The notes under the pieces: generated by a model
Databases searched by the model: none
The model's input: only the letters and a program-made list of their open reading frames with translations
Told to the model about the DNA's origin: nothing
Origin: an uncultured Clostridia bacterium
Lineage (GTDB): Bacteria; Bacillota; Clostridia; TANB77; CAG-508
Length of the DNA: 64,000 nucleotides
Direction: 5' to 3'
NCBI GenBank assembly: GCA_947632605.1
Contig: CANRPX010000005.1
Location: forward strand, 1 to 64,000
Position numbers and translations under genes: made by a program
Part shown: piece after piece, positions 53,702 to 62,194 of the stretch
Numbering within the stretch: the first letter of the stretch is position 1
Layout: each line of letters starts with the position of its first letter

Positions 53702-54676
53702 TTAGTTTTGCATAAAAATTTGTTGTCCTTTAATTAAATCATAACTTATTAGATTATTACCATCTAAATTTTCTTTATACATATCAATTCCTGTAATTTG
53801 ACTATTTTCATAAGTTAAATAATAATATATTCCTTTGTCCATATTACAACATGAACTATATATTGTTATTTCATATTGTCCTTTTCCCATGTGAACTAAT
53901 CCTCTTTGTTGATATACAGATTCTAGTATATGGAAGAATTGACTAATACTTTCTGATTCTGAAGAACCAGATTTTGAGTTCATTTTGGTAAAAGTTGCTT
54001 TTACAAATCTTGATGCAGAAGATAAGTCTCCTGGTAATCCCATTCCACCCATTCCACGACTATAAGTTTCCAAATTTAAATCTTTTGAAAAGTTATTTTC
54101 TGGTTGTTCTGTTGATAAACTCATATAATTATTTAAATTAAATAAATGAATATCAAAAGTCGGATTATTTGTAAGAACACCAACAGGATTATCATATACT
54201 TTTAATCCACTTTTTACACTTTCTACTGTTATTGATTTTTCTTTATCTGCAATTATCCAATGTAAAGGTGAGGCTAGTAATTCTTCACTAAAATTAATTT
54301 TAGCAATATTCATATTTTGTAATAATTTTTTTGCCTCTTCAATGTTTGAACATTGTGACAATATATAAGGAATAAATTCGAAAGGTGCAACATTATTCTT
54401 TCCTTCTTCTATTTCCTTATAATCAGCATTTCCTGGGAAATTAAGTCCAGCCATTCCTAAACCTTTTTCATTTATTGCATCATAATAAAGTGGATAATCA
54501 TTTGCAACATAAGCCATTCCAATAATTGCATAATGATTTTTGATTGGCTCCACCATTCTAAAATTAAATTCATAATTTCTAGGAGTTATAGTAACAGTTT
54601 CTTTATATGAATATTCTAAATCTAAATTTCTCCCAAAATAATGATCGTTTGTACTATAAGTTACAGCAGTACACAT
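53702..54676 (-). CDS. choloylglycine hydrolase family (bile salt hydrolase/penicillin acylase)
   Basis: Start MCTAVTYSTNDHYFGRNLDLEYSY (N-terminal nucleophile Cys), NEKGLGMAGLNFPGNADY. Confidence 0.9.
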   Translation of the reverse strand: MCTAVTYSTNDHYFGRNLDLEYSYKETVTITPRNYEFNFRMVEPIKNHYAIIGMAYVANDYPLYYDAINEKGLGMAGLNFPGNADYKEIEEGKNNVAPFEFIPYILSQCSNIEEAKKLLQNMNIAKINFSEELLASPLHWIIADKEKSITVESVKSGLKVYDNPVGVLTNNPTFDIHLFNLNNYMSLSTEQPENNFSKDLNLETYSRGMGGMGLPGDLSSASRFVKATFTKMNSKSGSSESESISQFFHILESVYQQRGLVHMGKGQYEITIYSSCCNMDKGIYYYLTYENSQITGIDMYKENLDGNNLISYDLIKGQQIFMQN

Positions 54677-54692
54677 AAACAACATTCCTCCT

Positions 54693-55839: not shown

Positions 55840-55868
55840 TTGATTTTCATTTGTCTTTGATTTATAAT
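55840..55868 (+). promoter_or_regulatory. toxin mRNA promoter (copy 1)
   Basis: TTGATT-N17-TATAAT. Confidence 0.7.
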
Positions 55869-55945
55869 CCTTCTCCATAGGAAATGACAAAAAGCAGATG
55901 TGGTTTTGCCACCAATTTTTACGATTCTTCGTGAGAGAGGTGGTG

Positions 55946-56065
55946 ATGTTTATGGTTAAAGTTATACTATTTTGGATAATATCTTTAATGTTTTCTTTAA
56001 CATTAAACGTTGCCTTGGCTACAGTTCTGTATAAGAACTGGGTTAACAAGCAACTACATAAATAA
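55946..56065 (+). CDS. 39-aa hydrophobic peptide, putative type I toxin (copy 1)
   Basis: GAGAGAGGTGGTG ATG; MFMVKVILFWIISLMFSLTLNVALATVLYKNWVNKQLHK. Confidence 0.7.
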   Translation: MFMVKVILFWIISLMFSLTLNVALATVLYKNWVNKQLHK

Positions 56066-56150
56066 AAAATAAACCATTCTGCTTATGCTGAGAGAATGGC
56101 TTATTTAAACTATTACTTGGCAAAACCACGTTTGTGGATTTGTCATTTCC
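56060..56150 (-). ncRNA. putative antisense antitoxin RNA (copy 1)
   Basis: TTGACA-N17-TATAAT promoter at 56158-56186 (minus strand); ends at hairpin 56068-56105 with T-rich tail; overlaps the 3' part of the toxin transcript. Confidence 0.6.
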
Positions 56151-56214
56151 TATATTTATTATATAGTCATTTATTTGTTTTGTCAAATTAATTTTAAGTA
56201 ATACAATTTGTAAA

Positions 56215-56779: not shown

Positions 56780-57955
56780 TTACTTTTCTAATAATTTTTT
56801 ATATGTTAAATCAATTCCAAATGCTCCTAATGTAGCTGTTATTAAAATTGCTATTACTGCTACTGTTAAAACAATATCTCCACAACTCAATCCCATTGCT
56901 AAAGGCACACCTCCAATTGCTGCTTGAACTGTTGCTTTTGGAATATACGCAATTGCACAAAAAATCTTTTCCTTTTTTGATAATTTTGTTTTTAATAAGC
57001 ATACAAATACACCCATTATTCTAAATAGTAATACCGCAAATATTAATATAACTGTATTAATTCCAGCACTTAAAGCATAATTTATATTTACACTTGCACC
57101 TACCAAAACAAATAACATTATTTCTGCTACTACCCAAAGTTTTCCAAATTTTCCAGTTATTCTTTTTGCAAGAACTGGATAATTTCTGTTTATTATTATT
57201 CCCATGCTCATAACGGCTATTAAGCCAGAAATTGAAACTATATCTTTAAGCCATTCTTCTAAAGTTACAAATATAAATGACATACTAAGTAATATTACTA
57301 CTTTAACAGTGTCTCTCATGTGAACTTTTTTAAATAATTTTATTAATATAAAACCAACAATTGCTCCTAATAATATTCCAAATATTATTGAAACTGGAAT
57401 ATTTATAAATTGCCAGATACTTATATTTTTTCCTGTTGCTAACCCAGTAAAAGTTGTAAACATTACTATTACAAAAACATCGTCAACTGATGCTCCAGCA
57501 AGTATGAGCTGTGGAATACTGTTTTTCTTTCCATAGCCATCTTCTATTAGTTTAATCATTTTCGGAACAATAACAGCAGGAGACACTGCTGCTATTACAG
57601 AACCCATTATTGCAGCCTCTAATAATGAAATTCCTAAAAGTTTTGGTGCTAATAAACACATACCTAAGATTTCAAAACACACAGGTAAAAAGCACATTAA
57701 TATTGCAGGTCTTCCAACTTTTTTTAAATCTTCTATATTAAGAGTTATTCCTGCTCTTATTAAAATTATTATTAATGCAATTTGCCTCAATTCAGATGAA
57801 ATATTTAATATTGTTCCATCAATGGCATTTACTGCATAGGGTCCTAATATTATTCCTACAATAATATAAGACAATAAACTTGGAATTTTTAATTTTTTAA
57901 ATATAAAACTTAGACTCATTGATAATAAAAAAATATATGCTAAACTGATAATCAT
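56780..57955 (-). CDS. cation:proton antiporter (CPA2/KefB-NapA type)
   Basis: About 12 TM; LSYIIVGIILGPYAVNAIDG, ASVDDVFVIVMFT. Confidence 0.88.
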   Translation of the reverse strand: MIISLAYIFLLSMSLSFIFKKLKIPSLLSYIIVGIILGPYAVNAIDGTILNISSELRQIALIIILIRAGITLNIEDLKKVGRPAILMCFLPVCFEILGMCLLAPKLLGISLLEAAIMGSVIAAVSPAVIVPKMIKLIEDGYGKKNSIPQLILAGASVDDVFVIVMFTTFTGLATGKNISIWQFINIPVSIIFGILLGAIVGFILIKLFKKVHMRDTVKVVILLSMSFIFVTLEEWLKDIVSISGLIAVMSMGIIINRNYPVLAKRITGKFGKLWVVAEIMLFVLVGASVNINYALSAGINTVILIFAVLLFRIMGVFVCLLKTKLSKKEKIFCAIAYIPKATVQAAIGGVPLAMGLSCGDIVLTVAVIAILITATLGAFGIDLTYKKLLEK

Positions 57956-57995: not shown

Positions 57996-58090
57996 AAAAA
58001 AAGCCAATGATTCTGTTATTTTATAACAGATGTCATCAGCTTTAAATAGCAGTTTTGATATATTATCAAGGGAGAACATCATTCCCTATA
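57996..58090 (-). promoter_or_regulatory. fluoride (crcB) riboswitch with terminator expression platform
   Basis: AGGGAATGATGTTCTCCC...AAACTGC...AAAGCTGATGACATCTG; pseudoknot GATGT/ACATC; terminator AGCTGATGA...TCATTGGCT-T7 sequesters the 3' aptamer strand. Confidence 0.85.
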
Positions 58091-58237
58091 TTTATCATAA
58101 AATATTATAGCACCTTTAAAAATTTTTTCAAGTATTTTTTACTAACACAAATTGTAATTTATACATTACTTACTATATTTTGGGGTTTCATAACATTGTT
58201 TATATTTAAAAATAACTAATTACTACCTTTTCCTCAC

Positions 58238-61710: not shown

Positions 61711-61809
61711 CTTTTTATCCTCCTTTCAACTTATTATAATCGATTTTATATCATAAAAAATTATAATTATCAATTTATAAAAAATAATCAAAAAATTTGT
61801 TTTGTTCGC

Positions 61810-61838
61810 TTGATTTTTATTTGTCTCTGATTTATAAT
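61810..61838 (+). promoter_or_regulatory. toxin mRNA promoter (copy 2)
   Basis: TTGATT-N17-TATAAT. Confidence 0.7.
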
Positions 61839-61915
61839 CCCTCTCCATAGGAAATGACAAAAAGCAGATGTGGTTTTGCCACCAATTTTTACGATTCTTC
61901 GTGGGAGAGGTGGTG

Positions 61916-62035
61916 ATGTTTATGGTTAAAGTAATACTATTTTTTATAACAACATTTATGTTATCTTTAACATTAAACGTTGCCTTGGCTACAGTTCTGT
62001 ACAAGAACTGGGTTGATAAGCAACTACATAAATAA
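61916..62035 (+). CDS. 39-aa hydrophobic peptide, putative type I toxin (copy 2)
   Basis: MFMVKVILFFITTFMLSLTLNVALATVLYKNWVDKQLHK; RBS GGGAGAGGTGG. Confidence 0.7.
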   Translation: MFMVKVILFFITTFMLSLTLNVALATVLYKNWVDKQLHK

Positions 62036-62120
62036 AAAAATAAACCATTCTGCTTATGCCGAGCTAATGGTTTATTAAAACTATTCTTGGCAAAACCACG
62101 TTTGTGGATTTGTCATTTCC
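62030..62120 (-). ncRNA. putative antisense antitoxin RNA (copy 2)
   Basis: TTGACA-N17-TATAAT at 62128-62156 (minus strand); hairpin about 62039-62076. Confidence 0.6.
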
Positions 62121-62194
62121 TATAATTATTATATAGTCATTTATTTATTTTGTCAAATGAGATTTTTAATTATATAGACTGTAATTTGTAACTC

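Follow-up and report, generated by a model that had tools for sequence, protein, structure and literature searches.

A putative convergent type I toxin-antitoxin locus of Clostridia whose toxin mRNA is predicted to fold end to end

Why should an RNA that encodes a small membrane peptide begin and end with complementary sequences? Positions 55877-56153 of the window (the whole 64,000-nt stretch analysed here, from contig CANRPX010000005.1 of an uncultured Clostridia bacterium) raise this question, for a short ORF there lies between two pairs of inverted repeats that coincide with the predicted starts of two convergent transcripts. The original prediction was that the two ends of the peptide mRNA pair with each other, either controlling translation as in hok mRNA or competing with antisense pairing. 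We read the locus as a type I toxin-antitoxin module, chromosomal and with convergent promoters, whose toxicity is putative and whose transcript ends and mechanism we infer (Table 1).

Table 1. Features of the locus and of its second copy in the window
Feature	Position	Strand	Basis or remark
Toxin promoter TTGATT-17-TATAAT	55840..55868	+	Sequence; kept in relatives
5' arm 1 ATAGGAAATGACAAA	55877..55891	+	Repeat search, fold, covariation
Segment B (GCAGATG) and 5' arm 2 (TGGTTTTGCCA)	55894..55911	+	Fold, covariation
GCCACC, anti-Shine-Dalgarno tail of arm 2	55908..55913	+	Predicted pairing
Shine-Dalgarno region GAGAGAGGTGGT	55933..55944	+	Sequence, relatives
Toxin ORF, 37 aa MVKVILFWIISLMFSLTLNVALATVLYKNWVNKQLHK	55952..56065	+	ORF and RBS; 39 aa if from ATG 55946
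Antitoxin RNA, ~90 nt, begins ATAGGAAATGACAAATCCACAAACGTGGTTTTGCC	56062..56151	-	Promoter and RNA-model matches; putative ends
Terminator hairpin	56068..56105	.	U-run on antitoxin strand, poor on toxin strand (by eye)
3' arm 2 (TGGCAAAACCACGTTTGT)	56118..56135	+	Repeat search, fold, covariation
3' arm 1 TTTGTCATTTCCTAT	56139..56153	+	Repeat search, fold, covariation
Antitoxin promoter TTGACA-17-TATAAT (12/12 consensus)	56158..56186	-	Sequence
Second module: promoter, arms 61847-61861/62109-62123, ORF 61922-62035 (MVKVILFFITTFMLSLTLNVALATVLYKNWVDKQLHK), convergent antitoxin	61810..62156	+	

Complementary arms in a convergent locus

A repeat search of the window returned two inverted repeats around the peptide ORF, the same two that had been claimed and exactly in their places: arm 1, with 15 of 15 nt matching (100%), and arm 2 (55895-55911/56118-56134, 88%). 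As RNA, the arms form 15 pairs, a 2/3-nt internal loop, and a further 17 pairs (55894-55910/56119-56135), three of them G·U. Structure prediction, which had been proposed as a check, gave a 277-nt strand (55877-56153) that is closed end to end, with a minimum free energy of -106.7 kcal/mol (z = -12.2); shuffled versions averaged -53.3 ± 4.4 kcal/mol, and 0 of 200 were as good. A second copy of the locus (homology 61790-62166) lies 5.9 kb away in the same orientation and is 93% identical. Because this paralogue keeps both arms intact, and because 98 of 99 loci collected without regard to the arms carry them (see below), the arms are not a product of chance.

The toxin promoter ends at 55868 and predicts an RNA start at about 55875-55877; the facing minus-strand promoter lies beyond the 3' arm and ends at 56158. 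These promoters fit the starts that had been proposed, and the arms lie at both. With starts predicted in this way, the convergent RNAs would share a near-identical 5' sequence of about 35-40 nt, as anticipated. The antitoxin RNA would be complementary to the toxin 3'UTR, and fully so to the 3' arm. Two of the segments have a second use: 3' arm 2 also codes for the antitoxin 5' hairpin CCACAAACGTGG, and segment B is also near-complementary to the sequence that opens the 3' terminator hairpin.

The predicted peptide has one hydrophobic helix and a basic tail. Across the family the median dN/dS of its ORF is 0.35, which shows purifying selection. At the sequence level the locus thus has the general features of type I modules, namely a hydrophobic toxin ORF with an RBS under coding selection and an overlapping antisense RNA with its own promoter. 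The peptide had no NCBIfam or Pfam match above cut-off, and its motif was not found in a literature search. The RNA had no Rfam match at the gathering score, and a low threshold gave chance-level matches only.

Further copies occur elsewhere in the genome. Contig C16 carries a copy in which the arms are the same and the peptide and terminator differ. A module on this contig (L007 2850-3165), on the opposite strand, has the same mirrored design, with both RNAs beginning ATAGAAAGTAAGTA (a different leader) and with the peptide MVEFLLFLIKGFMISLTINVALLRIIYIIWTDKQI. Antitoxin-side pieces are present on contigs C16, C20, and C22, and antitoxin-like units without an evident toxin lie at L009 1550-1670 (C22) and L007 2630-2740 (C16). 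These units might be orphans or decayed copies, and might act in trans on shared 3' arms. The window also contains a choloylglycine hydrolase-family gene at 53702-54685 (-) (Pfam CBAH, E 4e-109), possibly a bile-salt hydrolase, and a fluoride riboswitch (Rfam RF01734, 40.4 bits) at 58020-58095 (-). The riboswitch lies upstream of an apparent cation:proton antiporter gene at 56780-57955 (-), and a short ORF separates the two.

Conservation of the arms and their probable pairing as RNA

In the genus, 42 of 53 genomes have matches. We also searched with an RNA model of the antitoxin (R1, which has only 3 base pairs and is in effect a sequence profile). In the window's family, this model matched 180 of the 245 genomes sampled, and 34 of the 39 genera sampled. 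Class-wide, its only matches were in this family and in one genome of a sister family of the same order. The exact core pattern occurred in more than 117 stretches, almost all of them from gut Clostridia MAGs. A prophage origin was rejected (1 match in 2.9 million viral contigs), and a search for plasmid relatives returned short chance-level matches only. Judged by these matches, the family is chromosomal and clade-wide, often with several copies per genome.

We selected 99 unique loci on three features (the leader motif of the toxin, the RBS-ORF, and the promoter of the antitoxin), leaving arm identity unused. Matching arms were present in 98 of them; the exception (L089) looks decayed. In other genera we picked loci solely through their antitoxin side, and 43 of these 45 had the toxin-side arm, at fixed spacing. 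In 56 diverse loci, standard pairs filled 91.5% of the cells of the 32 arm pairs, compared with 39-49% in slid registers. Both sides had changed in 14 of these pairs, compared with 6.8 ± 1.6 in shuffled controls; for each of five covariation measures, 0 of 500 shuffles reached the real value. Cognate arm duplexes averaged -45.4 kcal/mol and permuted ones -40.6 ± 0.28 kcal/mol. All 41 loci that were folded close end to end, with arm 1 paired at a mean probability of 0.93. One locus (L203, the same as L340) has an intact arm 2 and a leader arm 1 replaced by unrelated sequence, and so offers a natural test of arm 1.

The differences between arms are asymmetric. Read as toxin-sense RNA, they are of the G·U type in 329 cells (71 contexts) and of the A·C type in 13 cells (10 contexts), where about 101 of the 329 G·U cells belong to one ubiquitous column and the contexts are related. 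A MAFFT column-based count without the three constitutive wobbles gave 70 G·U and 23 A·C cells, a moderate excess; G·U was in mild excess in slid registers as well (1383 vs 876). Because the differences keep G·U and rarely A·C, they point to arms that pair within the toxin-sense RNA rather than act as a DNA site. No such asymmetry is predicted by gene conversion, by an operator in the DNA, or by a 5' end that is shared. We also rejected an operator at both starts in view of the distribution of GGAAATGACAAA: of its seven exact copies in the genome, six sit in these loci. We conclude that fold-back pairing is well supported; the long-range 5'-3' interaction put forward for the toxin RNA is upheld by covariation, by the wobble asymmetry, and by the closed folds.

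Predicted ribosome-binding-site access and proposed antisense competition

The 3' arm lies beyond the terminator hairpin, which in the window copy has a good U-run on the antitoxin strand only, as judged by eye. Among the 98 loci, terminator-like signals were found in the antitoxin sense in 84 and in the toxin sense in 55, so part of the toxin transcripts may end before the 3' arm. Further downstream we found no consistent toxin-strand terminator (11/89, compared with 18/91 in the control). These signals make it plausible that short toxin RNAs occur beside long ones, and the 3' end could be set by head-on transcription or by trimming back to the helix.

In the closed RNA, the Shine-Dalgarno sequence is predicted to be mostly paired, and it remains so after removal of the 3' end; hiding it therefore needs no fold-back. 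Across the 98 loci, predicted accessibility was 0.278 in the closed RNA and 0.237 without the 3' arm, which is a small effect. Accessibility was higher in the closed form at 62 loci and lower at 36, a split whose p value is optimistic because the loci are related. Of the proposal that the fold-back controls translation as in hok, the 5'-3' pairing is supported, whereas silencing by the fold-back is not. The GCCACC tail of arm 2 is common to two alternative predicted helices, one with the 3' arm and the other with GGTGGT over the RBS. In the closed RNA, the predicted probability that the tail (GCCA) pairs is 0.75 with the 3' arm and 0.22 with the Shine-Dalgarno sequence; when the 3'UTR is masked as it would be by the antitoxin, the tail pairs with the Shine-Dalgarno region with a predicted probability of 0.84. 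The antitoxin duplex with the 3' arm has an energy of -81.8 kcal/mol, compared with -45.4 kcal/mol for the fold-back arm duplex.

We propose that the weaker plus-strand promoter gives rise to the mRNA for the 37-aa membrane peptide and the consensus-strength minus-strand promoter to an antitoxin of ~90 nt that is complementary to the mRNA 3'UTR. Those toxin mRNAs that run past the weak terminator in the toxin sense, a read-through RNA that we infer, would fold end to end, with the 5' leader (arm 1, segment B, and arm 2) pairing with the 3'UTR at the antitoxin's target site. The leader would in this way closely resemble the first ~35 nt of the antitoxin, apart from some wobbles, and because it is an imperfect imitation, the fully complementary antitoxin should out-compete it. 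Once the antitoxin occupied the 3' arms, presumably by strand invasion, the freed arm-2 tail would close fully over the RBS, and the long antitoxin duplex would be a probable substrate for RNase III. Without the antitoxin, the mRNA would stay closed, with both ends protected, and slowly translatable. Competition between fold-back and antisense pairing, the second half of the original prediction, is retained here as a model, on the strength of the antitoxin's full complementarity to the 3' arm and the two duplex energies. Taken as a whole, from read-through mRNA to the tail flipping onto the RBS, this is the explanation toward which we lean slightly.

In hok and in aapA1/aapA3, the closed mRNA is inert and 3' trimming activates it (PMC6733600). 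A reading of the present locus along those lines, in which an inert full-length mRNA is activated by loss of its 3' arms and the antitoxin is directed against the trimmed product, would suit the strong and conserved fold-back, and hok/Sok and Helicobacter pylori aapA/IsoA do share with our locus a 5'-3' long-distance pairing in the toxin mRNA, here conserved by covariation. However, removal of the 3' arm is predicted to leave the Shine-Dalgarno sequence hidden, and slightly more so than before. Moreover, the antitoxin is complementary to the 3'UTR only, so trimming would remove its target, unlike in the case of Sok or IsoA; Sok targets the 5' leader and coupled reading frame. The specific prediction of the hok-type mechanism, that 3' trimming exposes the Shine-Dalgarno sequence, is not supported by our modeling, and we regard this reading as unlikely.

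The enterococcal par/Fst system (RNA I/RNA II) resembles the locus in its convergent promoters, its intramolecular sequestration of the Shine-Dalgarno sequence and 5' end, and its shared terminator region. If both RNAs ended at such a shared bidirectional terminator, which is common to the par RNAs (PMC7472228), no single RNA would contain both arms, and the likeness of the 5' ends would serve a common purpose at each start (as operator, or in RNA stability or decay). The toxin-sense terminator-like signals and the position of the arms at both predicted starts agree with this, but the wobble asymmetry and covariation fit pairing in toxin-sense RNA and not a DNA site, and exact GGAAATGACAAA is almost confined to these loci. 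The par repeats DRa/DRb are direct, so that the RNAs are complementary there, whereas those of the window are inverted and the RNAs are alike there. In the related arrangement of Clostridium difficile phage phiC2, the toxin ORF contains the antitoxin terminator, and no toxin-strand terminator is seen before the 3' arm. No NCBIfam or Pfam match to an Fst-type toxin was found above cut-off. We consider a par-like arrangement improbable. That the arms are kept alike by inverted-repeat gene conversion, or are terminal repeats of a small mobile element with no regulatory role, is very hard to credit: the loci are multi-copy and several contigs break at the repeats, but homology between the two copies extends beyond the arms through both promoters, the differences persist as wobbles rather than being homogenized, and the spacing is fixed across genera.

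Related designs and wider meaning

The switch that we predict for the arm-2 tail has a precedent in Bacillus subtilis bsrG/SR4 (TxpA/BsrG family), where the antitoxin pairs with the 3' region of the mRNA, invades the 3' part of the main helix P1, and extends Shine-Dalgarno sequestration from 4 to 8 bp (PMC6562991). The predicted switch would follow the same logic and has the same sign; in the 98 loci the sequestering helix is predicted to lengthen upon masking of the 3'UTR. The bsrG peptide seems to be different, the two RNAs of that system are reported to pair through their 3' ends, and bsrG is carried on prophage SP-beta, whereas the window family is chromosomal. In a family-profile search, the window peptide had no NCBIfam match to TxpA/BsrG.

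The CD0956.2-RCd10 / CD0977.1-RCd11 class of C. difficile resembles the locus in its convergent promoters, its small hydrophobic toxin with a basic tail, and its short antitoxin that overlaps the toxin gene in the 3' part, and, by our analysis, also in its mirrored 5' ends and closed full-length fold. In phage phiC2, a CD0956.2-like toxin RNA and its facing antitoxin both start GCAAGAAGA...TAGAGTG(G/A)AGTTCAT, and the 316-nt strand folds closed (z = -10.5). On the toxin strand, the first hairpin that we see followed by a U-run is located past the antitoxin promoter; from this placement of terminators, the 3' arm is probably part of the phiC2 toxin RNA. Mirrored 5' ends were seen in C. difficile type I loci L267 (11400-11790) and L268-L281, and the motif pair is present in most of the related loci on phages and plasmids. 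The evidence for C. difficile consists of this conserved motif pair and the folds rather than of long-alignment scores, in which most C. difficile loci did not beat shuffled controls; promoters and A/T-rich flanks inflate that null.

The C. difficile class differs in showing no evident similarity of toxin (peptides compared by inspection) or arms, in being carried by phages and plasmids, and, in phiC2, in having the antitoxin terminator within the toxin ORF; the published modules also have sigma-B promoters, and several are CRISPR-linked. The accessible literature on these modules, which did not include the original 2018 description, does not describe mirrored ends. It does report that the toxin mRNAs are stable (36 and 89 min), that the antitoxins are short-lived (8-13 min), and that tight folding of CD0977.1 mRNA allows only a fraction of it to bind antitoxin (PMC7699646, PMC6563280). 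These stabilities and this folding fit the fold-back model.

We suggest tentatively, as a possibility short of a probability, that these loci form a clade-wide type I class in which the leader imitates the antitoxin in cis, is wobble-tuned so that the antitoxin always wins, and is flipped onto the RBS by antitoxin binding. The closed form would be poised, translatable, and long-lived, the reverse of hok; C. difficile would have arrived at this design from unrelated sequence, and it may be widespread among Clostridia in general. The window locus represents a family of putative RNA-regulated toxin loci that is undescribed in Rfam, Pfam, and NCBIfam. The model offers a testable explanation for two observations in C. 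difficile, the long-lived toxin mRNAs and the poor access of antitoxin to the folded CD0977.1 mRNA, and the signature of mirrored 5' ends allows such modules to be sought independently of toxin homology.
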